Source: Candidatus Desantisbacteria bacterium CG1_02_49_89
GTDB taxonomy: Bacteria > Desantisbacteria > UBA1551
Assembly (NCBI GenBank): GCA_001871075.1
Contig: MNUP01000056.1
Location: forward strand, 1-10,905
Length of the DNA: 10,905 nucleotides
Reading direction: 5' to 3'
Shown in pieces: positions 2 through 10,878 of this stretch. A program made the translations under genes and the position numbers. The notes under the pieces were generated by a model. That model searched no databases. It was given only the letters and a program-made list of their open reading frames with translations, and was not told where the DNA came from. The stretch's first letter is position 1. Every line of letters starts with the position of its first letter.

Positions 2-2572
2 AGGACGTTTTTGTGCGACCTGGGATCGGGTTTTGCCTGTTACAGGCAGGGAGAAGATGTTGAGATAAACGTGAAGGCGGTGAACCAGGGGAGTGAAAGC
101 CAAAAACTGCAAGTCAAAATGCAAATTTCAAATTGCAAAATGCAAAATGTATATGAAGAAACAGAAGAAGAGACGCTGGAAGCGGGAAGGAGCACAAACC
201 TGACGTTCACGTGGAAGGGAGGGAAATTTGACAGCGACCTGTATAACATAAAGGTAACGCTTTATTCCGGCAACAAGACAATTGACGCGATGGAAAGCGG
301 ATTCACTGTCTGGGACGAGAACATAATAAAGAACGGTATCCCGGTCACGATGGAAAACAATTATTTCAGGGTTGGAGAAAAACCGTTCTTTGTTTGCGGC
401 ACGAATTATACCGGAGTAGTATTCGTTTCAAACGCTGAAAACCCGTGGGTATTGGAGCAGGATTTCAGGAAGATGCAGGATTCTGGTTTAACCTGCATAA
501 GGGTCCTGCATTTCGGGATAAAGAATTTCTTCCCGGATTTCCTCAAGCCGAAGGAAAAAGTGATGCGCAGGCTTGACGCGCTTGTCCAGCTGTGCCAGAA
601 GCATAAGGTAACTCTGCTCCAGACAGTGCACGACTGGCTTGAGGTGAACGTTTCGGACAAGGACCTCAACGCTCAGAAGGAATTCTGCAGAATGCTTTCC
701 GAACGCTACAAGGGTGTTCCCGGGATACGCTGGGACATACAGAACGAACCGTCCTGGAGCTCATATGATCCCAGGCCCACACCCGACATAAACCGCGAAT
801 ACAACACTTTCTTGGCTGAAAAATATACTACAGCGGAAAACTGGCAGGAAAAATGGGGGGATGAAGCAAAAGGGGAGTTCGGCAGCCTGAAATTCGACGC
901 GAAATGCGGCCAGAACTGGGACAATATCAAGGCGTATGACCTGCGGCTTTTTCGAAGACGGCTGTTCCAGCGGTGGATAGACGGTAATTTCCAGGGGCTT
1001 ACGGCATCCAGAAGGTATAACATAGACGTTAGCGGGGCAGAGGCATATGACCAGGTCCTGTGGGAGAACATTGACGCCACCGCCATCCATTTCTACGATT
1101 CGTGGAAGGATTTCCCCCAGCGCCTGAAATACGCTGACCAGCGTTACAGGGGCATCCCGTTCGGGGACGAGGAATTCGGGCAGAAGGTGCACCCGGCATG
1201 GGGCGGCAGCGGTCCAGCGACCCCGAAAGTTTTTCCTCCGGCGATAGACCACTTCCTGGCGCTGGGGCATTACACCCTGGGCTTGGGCGGTTACGGGCTT
1301 CTGAACTGGGACTGGAAAGATATGCAGGAATGCCTGTTCCTTTGGGGTTTGAACTTCAACGACAGGCTTGTTTCAAAGCCAACGCTTACCGCGTTCAGGA
1401 ATATGAGCCTGCTATTCAGGACCTTGCAACCCGTATATGAAGCGCCTGAGGTTTATTTTGTAATACCTGACAGCCACAGGCTTGGCGCAAAGGCGGAGAT
1501 CATAGAGCGGGTAATACTGAACGGGCTGAAACTTCTTATAAGCACGCACCTGGATTTCGGCGTGATAAACGAATTCAACCTGAGCAGGCTGCCGAAAACC
1601 GCTAAGGTCCTTATGTACCCGGTCCCGTTCTGCCCTGAAGACACGGCATACAGCCTTGTCAGGGATTTTGTGAAGAAAGGCGGGACGCTCTATGTCTCCG
1701 GGGATATTTCCTTTGATGACCGTAGGCGGCGCACCCGGACCCAAAGGCTGTCTGAGCTATGCGGGGTGGAGTTCCAGGAAGAGAACTACCAGAATATAAG
1801 TTATTCCACGGGAAGCGCGGAGCAGGTAAGCGGGGCAGGCCTTGTTTCGTATCAGGGGTACCCCTGTATAAAGGTGAAACCCAAAACCGCAAGGAATTTG
1901 GGCGGCAGCGTTATTTTTGAAAATAAATTAGGTTCAGGCAGGGTTTTGTACGTGACTGATCCCTATGAACTGCACGCCAGGGAAAACAGCCTGTATAAGT
2001 TCTTTTTGAAATGGGCAGGGGTGCAGAGGAATGAAATTACTCCTGACAATCCAAAAATACACTTTTTCAGGGTTCCGCTTACGGACGGCGGAACAGCTTA
2101 TGTAATGATGAACGCGGATGAGGCGACACAGGATATTTCTTTCAAGCACGGCGATATAAATCTTGCGATGACGCTTGGCAGGTACAAATCCGGGCTTGTG
2201 GCGATCGCGAAAGACGGAAAAATATTCGCTTTGGAAACATCGGGTAAAATAAAGGCGGGTAATGATATAATAGCGGATTTCACTGGCCAGGGTATGGCGT
2301 TCTCCCTTGACAGCGAAGACATCCGCTCAAGTTCAGCAGTCGTGCTTATGCCTGTCCAGGCAGGAAAATTCTCCCTGAAATGCAAAGAAAACCTTACCGT
2401 TGAATTCGGAGAAGTCCGTTCCGGCAAATGGCAGGTTTTTAATGTAGCGGCAGGGCTTGTCCCTGCCTTATCCATTTCCCCTGACCAAACCGACTGCCAC
2501 TTTCTGTTTTGCGCGGGATCCGAACAGGCCAAATGGCGTGCTGCGTTCGAAAAATTCGTCAACCTTGAATGA
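2..2572 (+). CDS. Glycoside hydrolase, clan GH-A-like barrel with GH42-like C-terminal domains (5'-truncated)
   Basis: The frame is open to the left edge, so the gene starts upstream; the in-frame TTG at 11 has no ribosome-binding context. Numbering here counts that TTG as residue 1. Residues 1-105 look like a beta-sandwich accessory domain. A TIM-barrel-like region starts near GTNY (130-133). It contains IQNEPSW with N245-E246-P247, the usual acid/base motif of clan GH-A, and GDEEFG at 385-390, where E388 is the likely nucleophile. From about 454 (SKPTL) the protein resembles the Rossmann or trimerisation domain of GH42 beta-galactosidases; AKVLMYP at 531 and the GGTLYVSG strand fit that fold. 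The last 250 residues are beta-rich. A retaining glycosidase acting on a plant- or algal-type polysaccharide is inferred; substrate and exact family (GH5, GH42 or an unclassified relative) cannot be settled. Base composition matches the 1126-residue gene downstream. Confidence 0.8.
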   Translation, partial: RTFLCDLGSGFACYRQGEDVEINVKAVNQGSESQKLQVKMQISNCKMQNVYEETEEETLEAGRSTNLTFTWKGGKFDSDLYNIKVTLYSGNKTIDAMESGFTVWDENIIKNGIPVTMENNYFRVGEKPFFVCGTNYTGVVFVSNAENPWVLEQDFRKMQDSGLTCIRVLHFGIKNFFPDFLKPKEKVMRRLDALVQLCQKHKVTLLQTVHDWLEVNVSDKDLNAQKEFCRMLSERYKGVPGIRWDIQNEPSWSSYDPRPTPDINREYNTFLAEKYTTAENWQEKWGDEAKGEFGSLKFDAKCGQNWDNIKAYDLRLFRRRLFQRWIDGNFQGLTASRRYNIDVSGAEAYDQVLWENIDATAIHFYDSWKDFPQRLKYADQRYRGIPFGDEEFGQKVHPAWGGSGPATPKVFPPAIDHFLALGHYTLGLGGYGLLNWDWKDMQECLFLWGLNFNDRLVSKPTLTAFRNMSLLFRTLQPVYEAPEVYFVIPDSHRLGAKAEIIERVILNGLKLLISTHLDFGVINEFNLSRLPKTAKVLMYPVPFCPEDTAYSLVRDFVKKGGTLYVSGDISFDDRRRRTRTQRLSELCGVEFQEENYQNISYSTGSAEQVSGAGLVSYQGYPCIKVKPKTARNLGGSVIFENKLGSGRVLYVTDPYELHARENSLYKFFLKWAGVQRNEITPDNPKIHFFRVPLTDGGTAYVMMNADEATQDISFKHGDINLAMTLGRYKSGLVAIAKDGKIFALETSGKIKAGNDIIADFTGQGMAFSLDSEDIRSSSAVVLMPVQAGKFSLKCKENLTVEFGEVRSGKWQVFNVAAGLVPALSISPDQTDCHFLFCAGSEQAKWRAAFEKFVNLE
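107..150 (+). repeat. GCAAA/AAATGC-type low-complexity segment inside the hydrolase gene
   Basis: Short words such as CAAAATGCAAA, CAAATTGC and GCAAAATGCAAAATG recur within 44 bases. The segment reads in frame as KMQISNCKMQN, unlike the surrounding codon use. It resembles A-rich TGCAAAAT repeats that are scattered through some uncultivated bacterial genomes. It could equally be a normal beta strand that happens to use A-rich codons. Confidence 0.35.
2444..2467 (+). repeat. GTAG-headed palindrome inside the 3' end of the hydrolase gene
   Basis: GTAGC is followed by a perfect 7-base stem, GGCAGGG at 2449-2455 and CCCTGCC at 2461-2467, with loop CTTGT. The head GTAGCGG is identical to that of the intergenic palindromes at 2734, 9578 and 9889. 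It is read in frame as VAAGLVPA (residues 812-819), about 35 residues before the stop. It is interpreted as a REP-like element sitting in coding DNA. Confidence 0.55.
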
Positions 2573-2594
2573 TTTCCCCTCCGCCCGCCCATTT

Positions 2595-2618
2595 GTAGGG
2601 GCTCAATTTATTGAGCCC
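2595..2618 (+). repeat. GTAG-headed palindrome, arms GGGCTCAAT/ATTGAGCCC
   Basis: GTAG at 2595-2598 is followed by arms 2599-2607 and 2610-2618, perfectly complementary with a 2-base centre TT. A variant with a damaged left arm is at 9643-9662. It could act as an mRNA 3'-end stem for the hydrolase transcript, but no T-run follows, so intrinsic termination is doubtful. Confidence 0.7.
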
Positions 2619-2620
2619 GC

Positions 2621-2641
2621 GTAGGGGCGACCATGGTCGCC
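2621..2641 (+). repeat. GTAG-headed perfect palindrome, core GGCGACC/GGTCGCC
   Basis: GTAGG leads directly into a fully self-complementary 16-mer (2626-2641) centred on CCATGG. It begins 3 bases after the preceding palindrome, so the two are arrayed head to tail in the same orientation. Confidence 0.65.
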
Positions 2642-2650
2642 CAATCTTTC

Positions 2651-2703
2651 GTAGGGCAAACCTTTCCGAAGGTCCGCCAATTTTGTTAGGCGGAAGGTTT
2701 GCG
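2651..2703 (+). repeat. Compound branched palindrome, copy 1
   Basis: GTAG at 2651 precedes outer arms GCAAACCTT (2656-2664) and AAGGTTTGC (2694-2702). Between them sit two further possible stems: CCTT/AAGG (2661-2664 with 2669-2672, competing with the outer arm) and TCCGCC/GGCGGA (2673-2678 with 2689-2694). A near-identical copy lies at 9721-9772, and two shortened derivatives of the TCCGCC part lie at 9799 and 9847. Confidence 0.7.
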
Positions 2704-2704
2704 G

Positions 2705-2727
2705 GTAGTCGCAGGCTTTAGCCTGCG
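2705..2727 (+). repeat. GTAG-headed palindrome, arms CGCAGGCT/AGCCTGCG
   Basis: GTAG at 2705-2708 and one T precede perfect 8-base arms at 2710-2717 and 2720-2727 around a TT centre. The flanking TGAT on the right also follows the related palindrome at 9617-9634. Confidence 0.65.
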
Positions 2728-2733
2728 TGATAT

Positions 2734-2757
2734 GTAGCGGTCCCGATTTATCGGGAC
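2734..2757 (+). repeat. GTAG-headed palindrome, arms GTCCCGAT/ATCGGGAC
   Basis: GTAGCG at 2734-2739 is followed by perfect 8-base arms (2740-2747, 2750-2757) around TT. The trailer AATTC and an adjacent CCC-TTT hairpin are shared in layout with the copy at 9889-9910, whose arms differ. Confidence 0.7.
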
Positions 2758-2760
2758 AAT

Positions 2761-2781
2761 TCTCCCTTTTATAAAGGGAGA
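2761..2781. repeat. Hairpin TCTCCCTTT/AAAGGGAGA
   Basis: Nine-base perfect arms (2761-2769, 2773-2781) enclose a 3-base loop, directly after the AATTC-type trailer of the preceding palindrome. A looser equivalent follows the palindrome at 9889. No T-run follows the right arm. Confidence 0.6.
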
Positions 2782-2825
2782 CGATAGAGGGATTTACTTC
2801 TCGAATTTCATAGAAAAATAAGAGG

Positions 2826-2892
2826 AATAAGAACCTTCGTTCCACTCAGAACCTTGTTTTTCGTTGGTGAAGTCGTGGGAATGTCAAAATAA
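2826..2892. repeat. 67-base dispersed repeat, copy 1
   Basis: This stretch matches 10780-10846 at 66 of 67 positions; the difference is C against T in the word CCTTCGTTYCACTC. It contains the words CAGAACCTTG and GGTGAAGTCGTGGG. It encodes no credible protein. In both copies it is followed within about 30 bases by an A+T-flanked GGCTGTCCCTATTTT hairpin. Confidence 0.85.
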
Positions 2893-2916
2893 AAAATGGT
2901 GGCTGTCCCTATTTTT
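2893..2916. terminator. Degenerate terminator-like hairpin after repeat copy 1
   Basis: This is the counterpart of the perfect hairpin at 10856-10878, with substitutions in the left arm (AAAATGGTG instead of AAAATAGGG) and the same CTGTCCCTATTTT right half. One mismatch and one G-T pair remain in the stem, and a T-run follows. Terminator function is inferred and weak. Confidence 0.35.
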
Positions 2917-2955
2917 AAAAGAATATATAGGTTAAAATAAACTTGTGCCATAAAA

Positions 2956-2988
2956 GTTGCGAGTAGGTTGCGAGTAGGTTGCGAGTAG
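2956..2988. repeat. Three perfect tandem copies of GTTGCGAGTAG
   Basis: The 11-base unit repeats at 2956, 2967 and 2978 without a mismatch. The array lies 34 bases upstream of the restriction-modification start codon. One unit is close to one DNA helical turn, so the copies would face the same side and could be a regulator-binding array. No convincing -35/-10 pair was identified nearby. Slippage-generated repetition without function is the alternative. Confidence 0.75.
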
Positions 2989-3013
2989 TATTGAGATTGA
3001 TTATTTTTAAACC

Positions 3014-3018
3014 GGAGG
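3014..3018 (+). promoter_or_regulatory. Ribosome binding site for the restriction-modification gene
   Basis: GGAGG sits 4 bases before the ATG at 3023, which supports that start even though the frame contains other possible starts. Confidence 0.75.
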
Positions 3019-3022
3019 CAAA

Positions 3023-6000
3023 ATGCTGAAAGCATATTTTGCAGAAATATTTAAGACTGCAAATCAAGGAGACGCAAGAGAAGAAAGTTTTTATCCTACT
3101 CTCAAGAAGCTACTTGAGGCATATGCTAATTCAGTCAAAAAATCGGGTATTCAGGTAACATCCTTGCCAAAAAAGACAGAAGCCGGAAATCCAGACTTCA
3201 GAATATGGGATGGTAAACAGCATATAGTAGGATATATTGAAGCAAAAGCGCCAAATATTGAATATCTGGACCAAGTAGAAAGCTCAGAACAACTGGAGAG
3301 ATATTTAAGAATATTTCCTAACGTAATCCTCACCAATTTTTTTGAATTCAGGCTTTACAGAAACGGAATTTTAACAGACAGAGTTCTTGTGGCAAGGTCG
3401 AATAACCTTTTTAAGCTTAAAACTATTCCGCCCGTTGAAAAGGAAACAGAATTCTTAAATTTGCTTGAAAAATTCTTTTCTTTTTCTTTACCTCAGGTTT
3501 ATAACGCCAAAACACTGGCTGTGGAACTTGCAAAGAGGACACGATTTTTAAGAGATGAGGTAATCGCAGAGCAGTTGAAAGAAGAAGAATTCTCAGAAGA
3601 TAATTATATTTTTGGTTTTTACAAAGCATTTAAGAAATATCTCATAAGCGGTCTTTCAAAAGAGGATTTTGCCGATCTTTATTCCCAAACTATTACTTAT
3701 GGTCTTTTTGCGGCTCGCACTCGTACAGAAAATACATTCAATAGAAAGCTTGCTTATGACAATATACCATCAACCATCGGAATTTTACGAGATCTTTTCA
3801 AATTTATTTCCCTTGGAAATATACCGCAACAAATGGAGTGGATAATTGACGATATCTCAGAAGTTTTATCAGTTACTGACGTCAAAAAAATACTCCATCA
3901 ATATTTTCACGAAGGCAAAGGTAAAGATCCTATAGTTCATTTCTATGAAACTTTTCTTACTGAATATGACCCAAAAACAAGAGAAAAAAGAGGCGTTTAT
4001 TACACACCGGAACCGGTTGTTTCCTATATCGTTCGTTCTTTGCATAAGGTTTTAAAAGAAAAATTTAATAGAGCAGAGGGTCTTGCAAACGAAAAAGTTA
4101 CTATTTTAGACCCTGCAGCAGGAACACTTACGTTTTTAACAGAAACAGCTAAAGTTGCATTGGAAGAATTTATTTCTAAATACGGTGAAGGAGGAAAAAG
4201 TAAATTTATAAAGGAGCATATACTTAAAAACTTCTTTGCTTTTGAATTAATGATGGCTCCTTATGCTATAGGGCATTTAAAAATGTCTTTTCTATTAGAG
4301 GAACTCGGTTATAAATTGCAAAAAGATGACAGGTTCAAACTTTACCTAACCAATACATTAGAAATGGAAGAGTTATCAGAGACTGCACTTCCTGGTATGG
4401 CTTCTCTTTCTGAAGAATCCCACCTTGCAGGAAAAGTAAAAAAAGAACAACCAATTCTTGTTATTCTCGGGAATCCTCCGTATCATGGTCATTCTTCCAA
4501 TGTCGGAAAATGGATTTCTGATGAAATCAAGGTATATTATCAGGTAGACAGGAAACCTCTTAATGAAAGAAATTCTAAATGGCTTCGAGATGACTACGTG
4601 AAATTTATTCGTTTTGCTCAATGGAAGATAGAACAGGCAGGAGAAGGTATTTTGGGATTCATTACAAATCATAACTATCTTGATGCTCCCACCTTTAGAG
4701 GAATGCGTCAATCATTAATAAATAGTTTTAATGAAATTTATATTTTAGACTTACATGGAAGTAGTCAGAAAAAATTAAAAGGTAGTTCTAAAGACGAAAA
4801 TATTTTTAAAATTGAACAAGGAGTAGCAATTGCTATTTATATAAAGAAAAAAAATTCAAAAGAATCTAATGTCTATCATTCAGAGCTCTGGGGATTAAGG
4901 AATGAAAAATTCGAATTGCTTTCTAATAATGACATTTATAAAACGAAATGGAAGAAATTATCTCCAAAATCCGAATCTTATCTTTTTATCCCAAGAAATG
5001 AGAAGCTTTTAGGAAAATATGAAGATTATTTGAAAATAACTGACATTTTTCCTACAAATAGCGTGGGTATAGTTACTGCAAGAGACGAGTTTGTTGTTAA
5101 TTTTGACAAAGAGAAGCTCAAACGCAACATAAATCTTTTTTGTGATGAAAAAATGACTGACGAGATTATAGCTAAAACTTTTCACTTTGAAAATAAAATG
5201 GATTGGTTAAAACAAGCAAGGCAGGAACTAAGGAAAGATGAAGATTGGAAAGATACAGTTACTCAAATTTTATATCGTCCATTTGATATTCGCTGGATTT
5301 TATATCACGATTCAGTGGTTGAACGTTCTCGTAAAGATATAATGGGACATATGTTACAGGAAAATTTGGGATTAATAACTTGTCGTCAACAAAATCAAAT
5401 AGGATTTTGTCACGCATTAATTGCAAAAGATATAATAGAAGCATGCGTTGTTTCAAATAAAACAAGAGAAATAAATTATCTTTTTCCACTTTATCTATAT
5501 CCCAAAAAAGAGAGTTTCAAGAAGCGAGCTTCAAGTAATATTATGATGCTTTTTGAACCCGATGTAGGTTATGGAGAAAAGAAATCAAATTTATCTTCAG
5601 TGTTGATTGAGCAATTAATAAAAGATTACAAAAAGACACCAGAGCCAGAACAGATTTTATATTATATTTACGCAGTGCTATATTCAGAAATTTACCGCAA
5701 GAAATACGCCGAATTTTTAAAAATGGATTTTCCAAGGATTCCATTTACAAAAGAATATAAAGTATTTGAGAAAATGTCTAAGATGGGTGAAAAACTTGTT
5801 GATATGCATCTGCTCAAATCAAAAGAACTTGATTCACCGGTTGCCAGATTACAAGGCAAGAATGATAATAAAATTGAGAAAGTTAAATATGACGAGAAAG
5901 AAAATAGAGTTTATTTTAATAACCTTCAATATTTTGAAGGAGTTAAAAAAGAAATCTGGGAATATCAGATAGGCGGTTATCAAGTTTGCGACAAATGGTT

Positions 6001-6136
6001 GAAGGACAGAAAAGAAAAGTCTTTATCACTTGAAGAGATAAAATACTATTGCAAAATAGTGACATCTCTGGAAAAGACAATAAAAATCCAGGAAGATATT
6101 GATGAAATTTATCCAGAAATAGAAAAAAGCCTTTAG
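3023..6136 (+). CDS. Single-polypeptide restriction-modification enzyme (Type IIG-like, Type ISP-like specificity domain)
   Basis: The 1037-residue protein should both methylate adenine and cut DNA. An N-terminal PD-(D/E)XK nuclease is visible as P57-D58 and E73-A-K75 (NPDFRI, YIEAKAP), followed by the strand LTNFFEFR. A helical linker leads to an N6-adenine methyltransferase: GVYYTP at 324-329 (motif X region), DPAAGT at 363-368 (SAM-binding motif I) and NPPY at 484-487 (catalytic motif IV). The C-terminal third, with IFPTNSVGIVTARD (675-688), YRPFD (751-755) and LFPLYLYP, resembles the Type ISP (LlaBIII-like) specificity domain. The ATPase/helicase domain between nuclease and methylase in true Type ISP enzymes is absent, so a Type IIG-like mode is inferred. 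The gene appears intact. It is markedly A+T-rich beside its neighbours, which suggests horizontal acquisition. The next gene starts 17 bases after its stop. Confidence 0.9.
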   Translation: MLKAYFAEIFKTANQGDAREESFYPTLKKLLEAYANSVKKSGIQVTSLPKKTEAGNPDFRIWDGKQHIVGYIEAKAPNIEYLDQVESSEQLERYLRIFPNVILTNFFEFRLYRNGILTDRVLVARSNNLFKLKTIPPVEKETEFLNLLEKFFSFSLPQVYNAKTLAVELAKRTRFLRDEVIAEQLKEEEFSEDNYIFGFYKAFKKYLISGLSKEDFADLYSQTITYGLFAARTRTENTFNRKLAYDNIPSTIGILRDLFKFISLGNIPQQMEWIIDDISEVLSVTDVKKILHQYFHEGKGKDPIVHFYETFLTEYDPKTREKRGVYYTPEPVVSYIVRSLHKVLKEKFNRAEGLANEKVTILDPAAGTLTFLTETAKVALEEFISKYGEGGKSKFIKEHILKNFFAFELMMAPYAIGHLKMSFLLEELGYKLQKDDRFKLYLTNTLEMEELSETALPGMASLSEESHLAGKVKKEQPILVILGNPPYHGHSSNVGKWISDEIKVYYQVDRKPLNERNSKWLRDDYVKFIRFAQWKIEQAGEGILGFITNHNYLDAPTFRGMRQSLINSFNEIYILDLHGSSQKKLKGSSKDENIFKIEQGVAIAIYIKKKNSKESNVYHSELWGLRNEKFELLSNNDIYKTKWKKLSPKSESYLFIPRNEKLLGKYEDYLKITDIFPTNSVGIVTARDEFVVNFDKEKLKRNINLFCDEKMTDEIIAKTFHFENKMDWLKQARQELRKDEDWKDTVTQILYRPFDIRWILYHDSVVERSRKDIMGHMLQENLGLITCRQQNQIGFCHALIAKDIIEACVVSNKTREINYLFPLYLYPKKESFKKRASSNIMMLFEPDVGYGEKKSNLSSVLIEQLIKDYKKTPEPEQILYYIYAVLYSEIYRKKYAEFLKMDFPRIPFTKEYKVFEKMSKMGEKLVDMHLLKSKELDSPVARLQGKNDNKIEKVKYDEKENRVYFNNLQYFEGVKKEIWEYQIGGYQVCDKWLKDRKEKSLSLEEIKYYCKIVTSLEKTIKIQEDIDEIYPEIEKSL

Positions 6137-6144
6137 AAATAAAA

Positions 6145-6150
6145 GGGGGA
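6145..6150 (+). promoter_or_regulatory. Ribosome binding site for the 1126-residue exported protein
   Basis: GGGGGA lies just before the ATG at 6154, inside the 17-base gap after the restriction-modification stop. An out-of-frame ATG at 6150 is ignored because it opens no long frame. With so little room, transcription probably comes from within or upstream of the preceding gene. Confidence 0.55.
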
Positions 6151-6153
6151 TGA

Positions 6154-9100
6154 ATGAAGAAAATAATTTTATCGGCAGTACTGGTTTTGCTATTGCCCAT
6201 TATGGCATTAGGAGGGGAAGTGGTGACCAACGGCAAGGTAAGCGTGCAGTCTGTTGACGGCAAGAAGGGGATTGCCGGGTTTGACATTTTCGTGGACGGG
6301 AAACTCCTGTGCCCTGTGCGGCTCAGCTCCCAGGAAGGCATTGTTGCGAAGAACGTCAAAAAGGATGGCAGCATCCTGGTTTTTTCAGACCTGTCAGGCC
6401 AGGGTGTGACTTTCGGGAAAGGTTCGTTTGTCAAGGTTGAGGTGAAAGCGAACCATCCTTATCCGGAGATCTCATTCCGGCTGGAACTTGACAAGTTCGA
6501 CGAAGGCGCGTGGGGTTCTGTTTTTGGGAATTCACCGTTTCACTTTCTAATAATGAAACAGGAGAACGCGGAGGCTTTGCACCACCGCGGCTGGCTTGTC
6601 GCGACCCCGGTGCTTGACCCATATCCTTTAAAGGTCGGAAGGCAGGGGATAGTGTGTTCAAAATGGTCCCGCGAATGGATGTGGGCCCCGCCTTTCGGCG
6701 CCTGCCCGATCCCGGTTGCCGCGTTATGGAGCCCGAAAGAAAAGAAATACGTCGGCCTTGATTTTACTCACGCACGCCTTACAGACCACTCTGACAAATA
6801 TATCGCGTCTTCATACTGCTGGACGTCCGGCCCGGACAAGAATTTCGTGACGCTGGTCTACCCGCACGCGAAGGGATACGTGAACGCGGTAAGGTACCCG
6901 AATAACGGGGATATGATCGCGTCGCACTGCGAGCTTATTTATAACCTTGAACTTCCTTACTGGAAAGACCCAAATACATTTTATTTTGATTACATCTGGT
7001 CCAGGTATAAGGACCTGCTTCCCGCGGGTCCTGTACTGAACGACCTTTCATACATCCCGGGCGATTCACAGATACGCGCGTTCCCTATGCCTGGCGGAGT
7101 GGGCCTGACGTATAAAGTGCCCGCGAACGACGGCTGGGAGAGCATGTTCATGGAAGAAGGCACGATAGTCCCTGTCGGGGATGTCTGGACCCTTCCGAGC
7201 ATTGATTATCTTTACCTTATGGCAGGCGGTAAAACCGATAACGCCCAGATCACGGGTATCAAGAACCAGCTTTCATATATGGAAAGCAAGGCAAAAAAGT
7301 TCAAGGTTGAGGGAGATGACTGCGTTTTCTGGGAAAAGCCGCTGGAAGGCCCGCCGAAAATAAAATACGCTGGCGACGTGACAACCCTGCGCGAGGTCCA
7401 TGGCTGGTCAACAGCCCAGACATTCCTGGACGTTTACAGAAATGAGAAAAACTCGATGTCCGAGGAACAGAAGAAGGCTTACCTGGAGATAATCGACGGG
7501 GCATTGAACTGGACGAAATACAATATCTGCACCCGCAACGACATCTCTGATGTGCCTGAGGCGATGTTCCTGATAGGGCAGCCCGGAGTTTCGTTCTGCC
7601 TCAGTTATTATTACACGTTCCGCGACACGCCTGAACGGAAGAAGAACGCGGAGCTCGCGTATGAAATGGCGCGCAGCCTTATGCTGCGCTACCTTACGAT
7701 ATTTATCGCTGACACGGACGAGGAGGATAATATTGAGGGCACTTTCCTTATAGAGCCTAATTCAGGCCAGCCCTGGACAGGCGCTGCGTGCGCGAATGAG
7801 TGCTGCCTGATACCAACCGAAATGATAGACGTGTACGTGGCAACCGGGGATCCGCTCCTAAAATACTTCGTCCAGGGAATGCTTGAAAGGTGGTCATTGA
7901 TGTACCAGCCCATCCTTTACCCGTCAATTAAAAAGTCAAAAGGCAAATTTACCGAGTGCTACGGATTGTTCGATGACTGCGCTATCGGCGGCAGGGGCAA
8001 AAGGGCGCTTTACGGCAGTTTCAGCAGCTATAACCAGGTGGCTTATCCTCCCGGAGCGGCAAAAGCAAGGATAGTGTGCGGCGAGAAAGCCGCGATCGTT
8101 TTCAACAAGGACGGAGTTCACACGGATATTTCCGAGTACCGCTCGGCGAAGAACGGGGAGAATTTTTCCTTCAGGGTGAATTCTACCCTGAAGGAGCCGT
8201 TTGAAATAGCGGTTTCATACCAGTGGCCCTATCCCAACCTTATGGAGAAAGATATTTTCATTAAAAGGAAGGGCGAGATAAAAAAGCTGAGCCTGGAAGG
8301 GGATAACCCGGATTACAAGAAACCAGCAAAGCGTTCTTTCTGGTGCCTGCAGATCTTTAAGGTTCAGGACGGGGACGTGATCGCTGTGGGAAAATTAGAC
8401 GAAAAACTTCCTGTGCTGAAAAGCGAATCAATAAAGACCCTGACCCTCAATCCGAAAAATTATGAAAACGAAGGATTTAAGATCATAGATCTGGCCAAAA
8501 CCTGCAATGAGGCACCGAGCCTGAACTGGGATGACAACGCCTCCTACGCCCCGTATTTCCCCGGTGAACACTACTGCTTCAAGGTTCCGTATTACCTGGT
8601 TCCCGCTGCGCTTAATAACGGGAAGATATGCGTCTCAAGCGGCGAAATACCAGTTAACCTTTCCGTCCCGTACCTCTGTTTCTTTATAAGCGAGGTTAAG
8701 GACAGTTCAAAACTCACAATAAATTATGATGACGGCAGCAAAGAACCGGTTTCGTTCAAGGGAAGCTATCTCGCCTGGCAGGGATGGCCTTCGCTTTTCC
8801 AGTGCAGGACAGATATGGTGGCGCATAAATGTGGCGCAAAGGCAGTGAAATCAGTAACCGTTGAGAATATGTGGGTATGGGCGGTTACTGTAGCAACACC
8901 CGCAAGCGGCGCTGCGAAAGTGGAATGGGCTTTACAGAAGATCTCCGGGATCCAGAAAGCCGAAGCTGAAGAAAAAGAAAGAGATAGGAAGCGGCAGGAA
9001 AGCCTGAAAACCGGGTTTGCCCTGTGCCTGAAATCGGATTATGCCGAAGCAAAGTCCTATGAGTTCACCTATATGGTCGTGACTGACGAGGAACAGGAAA

Positions 9101-9534
9101 TACCTGCGAATTCCTTCCTTGAATATGACATCCATATTTCCAAGGATAGCTCAGGCATAAACGGAGGGTGCGAGCTCACAGGCGGGACTGTCGGGAATAT
9201 AAGGGACAAGGTAGGCGGCACGCATCCGGGCCAGAAGATAGACGAAAGCAAAAAAGGCCAGTGGGTGCACAGGAAGAACGACCTGACAGACGTGGCAGGC
9301 CAGACGTTCCAATATACCACGATCGCGGTGGACGGCAACGATCACAAGGCAGGCACGTACATCGCTTATTATAAGAACATCTATATTACTGACGGAAAGG
9401 ACAAGATATTTTTAAAGCTCTACAACAACGAGAATGCCATTCCATGCGGGGAAGCAAGTGTCGCGCCCAACGGCGGTGTGAAGGAAATGACCAATTTTGC
9501 AGTTGAAGTTGTCCCGGCCGCCAACGTTAAATAA
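6154..9534 (+). CDS. Large exported protein of unrecognised family, possible carbohydrate-active enzyme
   Basis: The 1126-residue product starts with a typical signal peptide: KK, a hydrophobic run, then MALG with probable cleavage after G20. I do not recognise a named family. Residues 25-330 are rich in beta strands and aromatic residues (HHRGW at 143-147, a WMWAPPFG segment). Residues about 410-590 look alpha-helical with repeated aromatic pairs (HGWSTA, MLERWSLMY), compatible with an (alpha/alpha) toroid as in many polysaccharide lyases and glycosidases. A charged helix near 930-953 (AEAEEKERDRKR) links to a C-terminal beta-sandwich-like module (954-1126) containing IPANSFLEYDI and KNIYITDGKD, plausibly sugar-binding. 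No catalytic residues can be assigned. The neighbouring hydrolase gene supports a role in polysaccharide breakdown, but this is inference. Its codon use resembles that hydrolase and not the intervening restriction gene. Confidence 0.8.
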   Translation: MKKIILSAVLVLLLPIMALGGEVVTNGKVSVQSVDGKKGIAGFDIFVDGKLLCPVRLSSQEGIVAKNVKKDGSILVFSDLSGQGVTFGKGSFVKVEVKANHPYPEISFRLELDKFDEGAWGSVFGNSPFHFLIMKQENAEALHHRGWLVATPVLDPYPLKVGRQGIVCSKWSREWMWAPPFGACPIPVAALWSPKEKKYVGLDFTHARLTDHSDKYIASSYCWTSGPDKNFVTLVYPHAKGYVNAVRYPNNGDMIASHCELIYNLELPYWKDPNTFYFDYIWSRYKDLLPAGPVLNDLSYIPGDSQIRAFPMPGGVGLTYKVPANDGWESMFMEEGTIVPVGDVWTLPSIDYLYLMAGGKTDNAQITGIKNQLSYMESKAKKFKVEGDDCVFWEKPLEGPPKIKYAGDVTTLREVHGWSTAQTFLDVYRNEKNSMSEEQKKAYLEIIDGALNWTKYNICTRNDISDVPEAMFLIGQPGVSFCLSYYYTFRDTPERKKNAELAYEMARSLMLRYLTIFIADTDEEDNIEGTFLIEPNSGQPWTGAACANECCLIPTEMIDVYVATGDPLLKYFVQGMLERWSLMYQPILYPSIKKSKGKFTECYGLFDDCAIGGRGKRALYGSFSSYNQVAYPPGAAKARIVCGEKAAIVFNKDGVHTDISEYRSAKNGENFSFRVNSTLKEPFEIAVSYQWPYPNLMEKDIFIKRKGEIKKLSLEGDNPDYKKPAKRSFWCLQIFKVQDGDVIAVGKLDEKLPVLKSESIKTLTLNPKNYENEGFKIIDLAKTCNEAPSLNWDDNASYAPYFPGEHYCFKVPYYLVPAALNNGKICVSSGEIPVNLSVPYLCFFISEVKDSSKLTINYDDGSKEPVSFKGSYLAWQGWPSLFQCRTDMVAHKCGAKAVKSVTVENMWVWAVTVATPASGAAKVEWALQKISGIQKAEAEEKERDRKRQESLKTGFALCLKSDYAEAKSYEFTYMVVTDEEQEIPANSFLEYDIHISKDSSGINGGCELTGGTVGNIRDKVGGTHPGQKIDESKKGQWVHRKNDLTDVAGQTFQYTTIAVDGNDHKAGTYIAYYKNIYITDGKDKIFLKLYNNENAIPCGEASVAPNGGVKEMTNFAVEVVPAANVK
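8167..8195. repeat. Perfect 11-base inverted repeat within the exported-protein gene
   Basis: TCCTTCAGGGT (8167-8177) and ACCCTGAAGGA (8185-8195) are exact reverse complements around a 7-base loop. The segment encodes SFRVNSTLKE starting near residue 672. An 11-base perfect stem with a short loop is unlikely by chance in a window this size. It lacks the GTAG head of the intergenic palindromes. Confidence 0.7.
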
Positions 9535-9558
9535 CGTTCATCGTGCATCGTTCATCGT
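9535..9558. repeat. CGTTCATCGT direct repeat
   Basis: The decamer occurs at 9535-9544 and 9549-9558, and relaxed versions (CGTACGTCGT, CATCGTA) continue to about 9575. It begins immediately after the exported-protein stop codon. It is short and may be simple slippage. Confidence 0.5.
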
Positions 9559-9577
9559 ACGTCGTAACATCGTATTT

Positions 9578-9599
9578 GTAGCGGTCGGATTCATCCGAC
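9578..9599 (+). repeat. GTAG-headed palindrome, arms GTCGGAT/ATCCGAC
   Basis: GTAGCG (9578-9583) leads into perfect 7-base arms at 9584-9590 and 9593-9599 around TC. The head and centre match the unit at 2734, but the arms differ on both sides in a compensating way. Confidence 0.7.
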
Positions 9600-9616
9600 A
9601 GCTTGCAATTTGTAAC

Positions 9617-9634
9617 TCAGGGCTTCAGCCCTGA
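9617..9634 (+). repeat. Palindrome, arms TCAGGGCT/AGCCCTGA
   Basis: Perfect 8-base arms flank a TC centre. The head reads GTAAC instead of GTAG, and TGAT follows as after the palindrome at 2710. It is treated as a diverged member of the same family. Confidence 0.6.
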
Positions 9635-9642
9635 TGATGTTA

Positions 9643-9662
9643 GGATTCAATTCATTGAGCCC
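9643..9662 (+). repeat. Decayed palindrome related to the unit at 2595
   Basis: The right arm ATTGAGCCC is identical to that at 2610-2618. The left arm is GGATTCAAT instead of GGGCTCAAT, leaving two mismatches. The GTAG head is also altered to TTAG. Loss of the head and loss of pairing coincide. Confidence 0.55.
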
Positions 9663-9674
9663 GAGTGTTTCGCC

Positions 9675-9718
9675 CGCCCCTTTGGGGCGAGGTCTCGCCC
9701 CGATGTGATATCGGGGCG
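9675..9718. repeat. Two adjacent CGCCCC palindromes
   Basis: CGCCCC/GGGGCG (9675-9680 with 9684-9689, loop TTT) is followed by CGCCCCGAT/ATCGGGGCG (9696-9704 with 9710-9718, loop GTGAT). Neither carries GTAG at its 5' side. Confidence 0.55.
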
Positions 9719-9720
9719 GA

Positions 9721-9772
9721 TAGGGCAAACCTTTCCGAAGGTCCGCCAATTTTGTTGGGCGGAAGGCTTGCG
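9721..9772 (+). repeat. Compound branched palindrome, copy 2
   Basis: It aligns with 2652-2703 from TAGGGCAAAC onward with very few differences: TTGGG for TTAGG, GGCTTGC for GGTTTGC, and a changed final base. The head is ATAG, not GTAG. One outer-stem pair is lost in this copy. Confidence 0.7.
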
Positions 9773-9798
9773 AGCCTGCCCTGCTTTGCCCGCCTTTG

Positions 9799-9820
9799 TC
9801 CGCCAATTTTCTAAGGAGGA
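9799..9820 (+). repeat. Shortened TCCGCC repeat unit, decayed
   Basis: TCCGCCAATTTT is retained from the compound element, but the right side reads CTAAGGAGGA, so the stem is partly lost. The AAGGAGGA it contains looks like a ribosome binding site but precedes no believable gene. Confidence 0.5.
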
Positions 9821-9846
9821 AATCTTTAAGGTGGGAACCTGCTGTG

Positions 9847-9868
9847 TCCGCCAAGTTTGTTAGGTGGA
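9847..9868 (+). repeat. Shortened TCCGCC repeat unit with G-T pair
   Basis: TCCGCC and GGTGGA still form a 6-base stem through one G-T pair around AAGTTTGTTA. This is the fourth copy of the TCCGCC unit in the window (others at 2673, 9742, 9799). Confidence 0.5.
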
Positions 9869-9888
9869 AGCGGAGCGAATGGTTTAGG

Positions 9889-9910
9889 GTAGCGGTCGCA
9901 TTTATGCGAC
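9889..9910 (+). repeat. GTAG-headed palindrome, arms GTCGCAT/ATGCGAC
   Basis: GTAGCG (9889-9894) precedes perfect 7-base arms (9895-9901, 9904-9910) around TT. The trailer AATTCCC followed by a CCACTTT...AAAGGGGG region parallels the arrangement after the unit at 2734. Confidence 0.7.
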
Positions 9911-9977
9911 AATTCCCACTTTGGAAAAGGGGGATTAAGGGGGATTTTAACCCATGCATGCAAAAAATAACATTTAC

Positions 9978-10000
9978 AAGCTAAAATTAACTTTTAGCTT
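9978..10000. promoter_or_regulatory. Inverted repeat overlapping the vapBC promoter, probable operator
   Basis: AAGCTAAAA (9978-9986) and TTTTAGCTT (9992-10000) are exact reverse complements with a 5-base spacer. The last two bases are the first two of the -35 box. VapB/AbrB-fold antitoxins, alone or with VapC, are known to repress their own promoters by binding palindromes, so this is the best operator candidate. Binding is inferred from position. Confidence 0.6.
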
Positions 10001-10027
10001 GACAAATCAAAATAAATCTTGTATAAT
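9999..10027 (+). promoter_or_regulatory. Perfect consensus sigma-70-type promoter for vapBC
   Basis: TTGACA at 9999-10004 and TATAAT at 10022-10027 are separated by exactly 17 bases, all at consensus. The expected start of transcription is near 10034, giving a leader of only about 14 bases that begins almost at the ribosome binding site. This is the clearest promoter in the window. Confidence 0.85.
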
Positions 10028-10034
10028 ATAGTAT

Positions 10035-10040
10035 GGAGGT
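10035..10040 (+). promoter_or_regulatory. Ribosome binding site fixing the vapB start
   Basis: GGAGGT ends 7 bases before the ATG at 10048. An earlier in-frame ATG at 10033 overlaps this site and lies at the predicted transcription start, so it cannot be used with a ribosome binding site; 10048 is preferred. Confidence 0.8.
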
Positions 10041-10047
10041 GATTGAT

Positions 10048-10296
10048 ATGCAGACTACTGTGACGGTTCGCGGACAGACGGCGGTTCCCGCAGAGATCCG
10101 CCGTAAACACCATATAAAAGAGCGTATGAAGCTTGAGTGGATAGATGACGGAAAGGTCATCACGGTTATCCCTGTGTCAGAGAACCCGGTTCAATACGCG
10201 CGCGGAATGCTGAAGGGAGCGGGATTGACGAAATCGCTGTTGAAAGCAAGAGCCGAAGAAAGGAAATTAGAGGAAAGGCGGGATGGCAGAAAATAA
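10048..10296 (+). CDS. vapB: AbrB/MazE-fold antitoxin, VapB-type
   Basis: The 82-residue protein begins MQTTVTVRGQTAVPAEIRRK, the swapped-hairpin AbrB-like DNA-binding fold (about residues 1-43) of many VapB and MazE antitoxins. The remaining charged tail, ending KLEERRDGRK, is the probable toxin-binding part that would cover the VapC active site. The gene sits under a consensus promoter with an overlapping inverted repeat and overlaps the toxin gene by 14 bases, so translational coupling and self-repression are expected. I chose the ATG at 10048 for its ribosome binding site. Family assignment is firm; the VapB label rests on the PIN-domain partner. Confidence 0.9.
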   Translation: MQTTVTVRGQTAVPAEIRRKHHIKERMKLEWIDDGKVITVIPVSENPVQYARGMLKGAGLTKSLLKARAEERKLEERRDGRK

Positions 10297-10705
10297 CGGC
10301 AGTTCCTATGTTCTTGACACTTCGGCGATACTTGCTTTTCTTGAAGACGAGCCAGGAGCGGATGTTGTGGAACGGCTTCTGAAACAGGCGGGTTCAAGAA
10401 AATTCAGGGTCTTCGCTTCATTTATGAGTTTTATGGAATGTTTTTATCATGTGTATATGGAACAGGGCGAGGAGTCAGCAAAAAAGGTCTATATGAACCT
10501 GAAAACCCTGCCCATTCACAGAGTTGACGCGGACGAAGAGCTTATCCTCATCGCTGGAAGCATAAAGGCGAATTTCCGCCTGTCTGTGGCTGATTCCTGG
10601 ATTATCGCCACCGCAAAAAAGAAAAACGCCAAACTTGTCCACAAGGACCCCGAATTCGAACAGGTCGGCAAGGAAGTCATTCTCCTGTCTCTTCCTTATA
10701 AGTAG
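10283..10705 (+). CDS. vapC: PIN-domain ribonuclease toxin, VapC-type
   Basis: The 140-residue protein has the usual length of a VapC toxin, a Mg-dependent endoribonuclease that typically cuts tRNA or rRNA. The four PIN acidic positions are visible: D12 (YVLDTSAIL), E52 (SFMEC), D104 (SVADSWI) and D122 (HKDPEF), so it should be active. The start lies inside vapB, with the purine-rich AGGAAAGGCGGG just upstream. It shares the vapB promoter. The target RNA cannot be read from the sequence. The TAG stop belongs to a GTAG-headed palindrome at 10702-10723, which may have replaced the original 3' end of the gene. Confidence 0.92.
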   Translation: MAENNGSSYVLDTSAILAFLEDEPGADVVERLLKQAGSRKFRVFASFMSFMECFYHVYMEQGEESAKKVYMNLKTLPIHRVDADEELILIAGSIKANFRLSVADSWIIATAKKKNAKLVHKDPEFEQVGKEVILLSLPYK

Positions 10706-10723
10706 GGGCGGGCTTGCCCGCCC
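10702..10723 (+). repeat. GTAG-headed GC-rich palindrome at the vapC stop codon
   Basis: GTAG at 10702-10705 supplies the vapC TAG stop. It is followed by perfect 8-base arms GGGCGGGC (10706-10713) and GCCCGCCC (10716-10723) around TT, then TTTGT. A GC-rich stem with a short T-run could also serve as a weak intrinsic terminator for vapBC. Confidence 0.7.
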
Positions 10724-10727
10724 TTTG

Positions 10728-10765
10728 TCATTGCGAGTTCCCGTTTGTCGGGACGAAGCAATCTC
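10728..10765. repeat. ATTGCGAG...GCAATCTC nested palindrome
   Basis: ATTGC (10730-10734) pairs with GCAAT (10758-10762), and an inner CCCG/CGGG stem (10740-10743, 10749-10752) has loop TTTGT. The outer words TCATTGCGAG and GAAGCAATCTC match a dispersed repeat style familiar from many bacterial genomes. The 8-mer TTGCGAGT also occurs in each unit of the tandem array at 2956-2988. Confidence 0.6.
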
Positions 10766-10779
10766 AATTTCCATTGAAA

Positions 10780-10846
10780 AATAAGAACCTTCGTTTCACT
10801 CAGAACCTTGTTTTTCGTTGGTGAAGTCGTGGGAATGTCAAAATAA
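10780..10846. repeat. 67-base dispersed repeat, copy 2
   Basis: This copy is identical to 2826-2892 except for one base, in the same orientation. The near-identity over two sites 8 kb apart implies recent copying or continued homogenisation. No coding potential is seen. Confidence 0.85.
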
Positions 10847-10855
10847 GGAAAATAA

Positions 10856-10878
10856 AAAATAGGGGCTGTCCCTATTTT
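10856..10878. terminator. Terminator-like hairpin AAAATAGGG/CCCTATTTT
   Basis: Perfect 9-base arms (10856-10864, 10870-10878) enclose GCTGT. The A-run on the left and T-run on the right make it plausible as a bidirectional intrinsic terminator. It always follows the 67-base repeat in this window and contains the word CTGTCCCTATTTT. It may equally be the end structure of a mobile element. Confidence 0.5.

Follow-up and report, generated by a model that had tools for sequence, protein, structure and literature searches.

GTAG-tagged palindromes of a Desantisbacteria contig as probable REP elements of the RAYT type, with unlike tips in head-to-head doublets

The window analyzed here is the entire contig MNUP01000056.1 (10,905 nucleotides; label C16) of Candidatus Desantisbacteria bacterium CG1_02_49_89, whose 2.48 Mb genome is assembled in 150 contigs with a completeness of 93.5%. 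Its mechanically called open reading frames (ORFs) include a glycosidase-like ORF (bp 11-2572), a Type ISP restriction-methylation gene, a 1126 aa ORF for which a family match was not found and a MazE-like/PIN-domain gene pair. The window also carries a series of short palindromes headed by the tetranucleotide GTAG. It is very probable that these are GTAG-tagged repetitive extragenic palindromes (REPs) of the type associated with REP-associated tyrosine transposases (RAYTs), that doublets of such elements are REPINs (REP doublets forming hairpins) and that they belong to families with switching stem tips, the two tips within a doublet being kept unlike.

Eight sites in the window consist of GTAG, zero to two further bases and a perfect stem of 7 bp or more; every one is on the + strand. 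In 300 dinucleotide shuffles, such sites averaged 0.04 and never exceeded 1. No other tetranucleotide occurs beside perfect window hairpins more than four times. Raw GTAG is not enriched in the window (39 occurrences, 40.6 expected); the enrichment is confined to placement beside hairpins. The initial annotation had listed nine GTAG palindromes, and eight of these (at 2444, 2595, 2621, 2705, 2734, 9578, 9889 and 10702) are the sites just described, whereas the arms of the ninth (2651) are split by a 29-nt palindrome (Table 1). To place the window in its genome, 1.37 Mb of the 2.48 Mb (55%) was read. Part of this sample consists of contigs picked for carrying GTAGGGGC, so that counts from those contigs are biased; a 507-kb sample was made up of contigs selected without regard to hairpins, yet with RAYT contigs among them. 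GTAG ranks first of all 256 tetranucleotides beside hairpins in the 1.37-Mb sample, at 20 times the median, so the genome-wide enrichment on which a REP-like interpretation had been made to depend is present. In the 507-kb sample, GTAG precedes a stem of at least 8 bp by 5 bases 28 times (1.0 expected) and GTAA does so 41 times (2.3 expected).

The 1.37-Mb sample contains 253 units in seven families, many as dispersed copies; only 39 lie inside ORFs of at least 120 aa and most are extragenic. The families have constant tag-proximal parts (GTAACTCA, GTAGGGCA, GTAGCCGC, GTAGGGGC, GTAGCG, GTAGCTGC and GTAGTG) and a variable tip. Of the 239 perfectly paired units, 223 (93%) have an arm that occurs two or more times, and 28 of the 44 arms overall are recurrent. 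The arms, which had been described as nearly free, are a menu of recurrent types, each of which has been copied. Their complementarity, which had been described as constant, holds for most units: among those chosen by prefix and not by pairing, 230 have no mismatch, 18 have one and 10 have two, and there are a few chimeric units in which the left arm is of one type and the right arm of another (for example, GTAGGGGCGACC-TT-GCCCGCCC and GTAGGGGCGTGAT-TC-ATCGCAC).

The variety of arms would have two sources, the first of which would lie in the families themselves: the families number seven or more, the tag-proximal base of each is fixed, and their tips would switch by compensated base-pair changes. 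Each switched tip would then be copied by a RAYT, so that every paired version recurs. In E. coli, the upper stem of a REP can be swapped to its complement with binding and cleavage retained (PMC8266576), which leaves the tips free to change while they remain paired. The initial annotation had instead raised the possibility that one arm is actively copied from the other (quasi-palindrome correction by template switching). Fully paired units do far outnumber one-mismatch intermediates (230 versus 18), and certain tip types are separated by several base-pair differences at once, as such copying would predict; however, recent amplification of each type accounts for the scarce intermediates, the chimeric and mismatched units persist uncorrected, and the changes among the REPINs described below mostly affect single base pairs, several of them passable through G.T. 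Mismatches of the G.T and A.C types number 9 and 4, a difference that is not significant and rests on too few cases to tell which strand is selected. We consider arm copying very improbable.

The genome encodes nine RAYT-like genes and one IS200 tnpA. Two of the RAYT genes, 163 aa paralogues on contig C23 that are 86% identical, exceed the curated cut-off of the REP-associated tyrosine transposase model NF047646 (99.6 bits, cut-off 80) and align with structure 4er8, E. coli TnpA-REP, across both the H-x-H and the Tyr region (PDHLHLL and AKYIFNNP). Both paralogues (L007/L008) are surrounded by dense arrays of GTAAC-(TCARRCCT) hairpins, which belong to the same family as the window unit at 9612; no units were found near the remaining RAYT-like genes of this genome. 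The earlier statement that the system lacks a visible transposase is correct for the 10.9-kb contig but not for the genome, where two of the nine genes stand within hairpin arrays. A RAYT with like units in its own flanks, which had been proposed as a search target, does exist, though the units are those of the GTAA branch and not of the window's GTAG families. These latter resemble families beside RAYTs in other phyla, such as GCAAACCT/GCAAGGCT in L067 and CGCAACCT in L065.

Relatives of the C23 RAYTs were sought in one genome per species (84,980 species), which yielded 79 loci in Deltaproteobacteria, planctomycetes of the Scalindua/Brocadia type, Chloroflexi, Acidobacteria, Zixibacteria, WOR-3, Bipolaricaulota and others. 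The density of GTAG hairpins at these loci is 3.60/kb within 300 bp of the RAYT and 0.122/kb elsewhere (approximately 30-fold), and 52 of the 79 have at least one GTAG hairpin near the gene; GTAC and GTAT hairpins are rare. The RAYTs with GTAACTCA-tagged units (those of this genome, L059 and L060) cluster with one GTAG-tagged RAYT, L061 (support 0.96), which suggests that the tag shifted from GTAG to GTAA in or near this clade. GTAA combined with REP tags was not found in the literature searched, which is weak evidence of novelty.

The RAYTs that have been tested act on single-stranded REPs, binding and cutting the tagged strand alone, and GTAG helps to choose the cut site (PMC8266576). We infer that a RAYT moves the elements described here, and binding and cutting of their tagged strand is predicted. 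GTAG-tagged REPs would have spread in the past through Y1-HUH RAYT transposases acting on folded single-stranded DNA, while the branch that looks active would be a GTAA-tagged 48-bp REPIN with the hairpin type seen around the two RAYT paralogues. The G-rich, gene-sense strand carries 148 of the 166 GTAG units of our 1.37-Mb sample. This is the bias expected for insertion into the lagging-strand template, although gene direction coincides with GC skew in this genome, which leaves replication and transcription inseparable as its cause; at the loci of a relative, the few units tagged GTAG have no strand bias (6 to 4).

This relative (G001) belongs to the same order and is the only other member of the phylum in the comparison; its assembly is 87% complete and its proteins are mostly 50-90% identical to those of our genome, so that the two are distant. 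The 48-bp REPIN, GTAACTCA-tip1-TGA-TA-TCA-tip2-TGAGTTAC, is present in 18 copies in our genome and 21 in G001, and a reversed-pattern control gave 0 matches. It consists of two 8-bp hairpins with their tags outward and a 2-nt spacer. The tips are unlike in all 39 copies. The commonest pair is GGG/AAC in our genome and GGA/AAC in G001, and AAG/AAA, AAG/AAC, AAC/GGA and AAA/GGA also occur. Two contigs of G001, C4 (ending at 7002) and C116 (ending at 9312), both break within REPIN arrays, and the RAYT missing from that assembly may lie in the gap between them.

Head-to-head pairs of any family follow the same pattern, with none of 19 in our genome having alike tips. At the 79 RAYT loci, tips are identical in 5 of 58 head-to-head pairs versus 43 of 59 tandem pairs (Fisher p 3.6e-13); counted by locus, alike pairs are in the majority in 2 of 27 (head-to-head) versus 14 of 25 (tandem). 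When 22 distinct REPINs are aligned and read as two hairpins, 99.7% of the cells are paired and 15 are double-changed (0 of 500 shuffles); read as one long hairpin, the same alignment has 0 double-changed cells. This covariation supports two separate hairpins, and in these doublets it also supports the selection on hairpin pairing that had been suggested for the window. Using DNA parameters, natural doublets have a predicted mean energy of -12 kcal/mol as two hairpins and -7 kcal/mol as one long hairpin, and giving a doublet two equal tips, by changing either one, brings the long form to a predicted -24 kcal/mol.

A difference maintained between the tips of a head-to-head doublet would be the second source of arm variety. 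Identical tips would turn the doublet into one long perfect palindrome, whereas with different tips each REP would fold as its own hairpin. Doublets with equal tips would be lost, either because the long hairpin conceals both REPs from the RAYT, as proposed in PMC3116915, or because long palindromes are cut or deleted, as proposed in PMC3733652. Avoidance of long palindromes, whether through RAYT recognition or through hairpin-cutting nucleases and deletion at replication, would on this account keep the tips unlike. This step, and no other, is contested by the view that a RAYT requires a left and a right REP as distinct ends, like the left end (LE) and right end (RE) of IS200/IS605. Across phyla, pairs usually combine a member ending in GGCT with one ending in CCCT or ACCT, and E. 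coli bacterial interspersed mosaic elements (BIMEs) couple y with z REPs (PMC8266576), both as a two-ended system would have it. However, AAG/AAA, AAC/GGA and AAG/AAC pairs occur, so that any difference seems sufficient; the enzymes tested in PMC8266576 leave the inverted REP (iREP) unbound and uncut, which indicates that a REP is recognized on its own strand only; and REPIN orientation is unbiased (6 versus 5). We regard a requirement for two ends, which competes with this one step only, as rather unlikely.

Comparison with G001 also bears on a different explanation, in which selection holds the units in place as transcription terminators or mRNA 3' stem-loops and GTAG is incidental. Six syntenic intervals of G001 (two identified via REPIN flanks, L215/L029 and L211/L173, and four by automatic scan) carry GTAA or GTAG units where our genome has none, and no shared unit site was seen among 22 scanned syntenic intervals. 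The positions of the units are lineage-specific, which goes against conserved terminators, though the genomes are distant. This comparison of insertion sites had been suggested by the initial annotation, and the empty sites, like the enrichment of GTAG beside palindromes, agree with its REP-like reading. The units are indeed found mainly between genes that run in one direction (for 92 of the 116 classifiable GTAG units, both neighbours run the same way as the unit) and unit 2621 scores as a terminator; however, a scan of the window for a GC stem with a T run gave 14 matches versus 13.2 in shuffles, with only that one unit among them, an Rfam search gave no match, and the hairpins cluster at RAYT genes. 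Terminators as the main explanation are refuted by the empty sites, and we consider selection in place exceedingly unlikely. A secondary RNA role of the units is possible.

Several points weigh against our interpretation of these palindromes as RAYT-type REPs with tips kept unlike. Most window units are single GTAG REPs, and a cognate RAYT for their families was not found in the 93.5%-complete assembly; these families may be relics or may be tied to an unassembled RAYT gene. The 39 REPIN cases represent far fewer independent events because the doublets are copies of one another. The doublet energies are model-derived, and the gap for equal tips follows from symmetry and is true by construction, so that the rarity of such doublets alone is the evidence. 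Finally, a functional difference between the two ends could instead account for the excess of unlike tips.

Table 1. Tagged hairpins and related palindromes of the window
Feature	Position (bp)	Strand	Remarks
GTAG unit GTAGC(GGCAGGG)cttgt(CCCTGCC)	2444-2467	+	Within the 3' end of the glycosidase-like ORF
GTAG REP, arm GGGCTCAAT, loop TT	2595-2618	+	Recurrent arm, 4 copies in sample
GTAG REP, arm GGGCGACC	2621-2642	+	Sole unit that also scores as terminator-like
GTAG REP GTAGG(GCAAACCT...AGGTTTGC)	2651-2702	+	Arms 2656-2664 and 2694-2702; 29-nt second palindrome between them, at the tip
Tip insert around TCCGAAGGTCCGCCAATTTTGTTAGGCGG	2665-2693 (approximate boundaries)	+	
GTAG REP GTAGT(CGCAGGCT)tt(AGCCTGCG)	2705-2727	+	
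GTAG REP GTAGCG(GTCCCGAT)tt(ATCGGGAC)	2734-2757	+	8 copies of arm in sample
GTAG REP GTAGCG(GTCGGAT)tc(ATCCGAC)	9578-9599	+	
GTAA REP GTAAC(TCAGGGCT)tc(AGCCCTGA)	9612-9634	+	Type of the hairpins flanking the RAYT genes of the genome; overlooked in the initial annotation
Second copy of interrupted GCAAACCT REP	9720-9771	+	Tag decayed to ATAG; overlooked in the initial annotation
Copy of tip-insert palindrome	9798-9826	+	Nested in another copy of the same palindrome
GTAG REP GTAGCG(GTCGCAT)tt(ATGCGAC)	9889-9910	+	
GTAG REP, arm GGGCGGGC	10702-10723	+	17 copies of arm in sample; TAG (in 10702-10705) also terminates the PIN-domain (vapC-like) gene as its stop codon

Other repeats accompany these elements. 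A second short palindrome of 25-29 nt (consensus around TCCGCCAATNTTNNNGGAGGA) is located exactly at the tips of REP hairpins, whose surrounding arms still pair; it was found at 2665-2693, 9741-9769 and 9798-9826 of the window and at L183:10168, L049:6682, L022:2828, L037:3668 and L193:15254, as well as within other palindromes and nested in its own copies. It is reminiscent of SDR, small nested repeats that have been reported from cyanobacteria. Another compact doublet, GGAGTAG-GGGCTttAGCCC-CGT..ACG-ACCCTaaAGGGT-CTACTCC, also has unlike tips (for example, L029:18745 and L044:18416); its 18 pattern matches correspond to about 9 elements counted on both strands. A near-identical stretch of approximately 100 bp at 2826-2915 and 10780-10878 bounds a block made up of the restriction gene, the 1126 aa ORF and the toxin-antitoxin pair, and in the genome sample the full stretch is restricted to the window. 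A second repeat superfamily, TGTCATTGCGA...GAAGCAATC, occurs at 10726-10763 of the window and in 70 matches in the sample, with centres that are highly variable and sometimes nested; it resembles the REPs with a CGTC tag described by Di Nocera et al. (2013).

Much of this system has precedents. The GTAG-tagged REP superfamily (PMC3733652) shares the tag, a short stem with a 2-3 nt loop (often TY), complementary stem variants, head-to-head dimers, several families per genome and a location 3' of genes; what differs here is a whole GTAA-tagged branch and a heterodimer test quantified over RAYT loci of many phyla. As in the REPIN/RAYT system of Bertels and Rainey (2011; PMC3116915), an inverted REP doublet is mobile and the RAYT gene is flanked by like REPs, but the doublets found here are just 48 bp long with a 2-nt spacer, and because their tips differ the long-hairpin form is disfavoured, while the SBW25 consensus doublet forms one long hairpin. 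The y/z BIMEs of E. coli and TnpA-REP (PMC8266576) likewise combine two inversely paired REP types with a sequence-related RAYT, whereas the stems here are perfect, short and without the group-2 bulge. IS200/IS605 elements also use a Y1-HUH transposase that recognizes hairpins, and the IS200 tnpA of this genome is a true one, but the units described here are gene-less. Earlier publications already describe GTAG REPs, G.T pairs, linkage to RAYTs, heterodimer preference and families whose stems change in a complementary way; specialists might be less prepared for the GTAA-tagged branch and for how large the heterodimer effect is.

The preference for heterodimers was reported by Di Nocera et al. 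(2013) without an obvious explanation, with protection from SbcCD-type cleavage suggested (PMC3733652). The question of unlike partners that they left is now quantified across many phyla, and the 48-bp REPIN offers a natural experiment in which the same element has a different prevailing tip pair in two genomes of the same order (GGG/AAC versus GGA/AAC), with unlike tips in 39 of 39 copies. We advance only tentatively, as an idea about which we remain somewhat doubtful, a general rule for RAYT-borne doublets (tips selected to be non-identical, each paired with itself, and never forming one long palindrome) together with a move of the guide tag from GTAG to GTAA in one RAYT clade. Flank profiles for the predicted CT or TT cut site gave no clear dinucleotide, and the families differ in the base preceding the tag (T, C or G). 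If the proposal is true, the GTAA tag would shift the cut site from CT to TT under the known cross-pairing model. The role of the tag in guiding the choice of cut site has a natural test in the GTAA-tagged clade.

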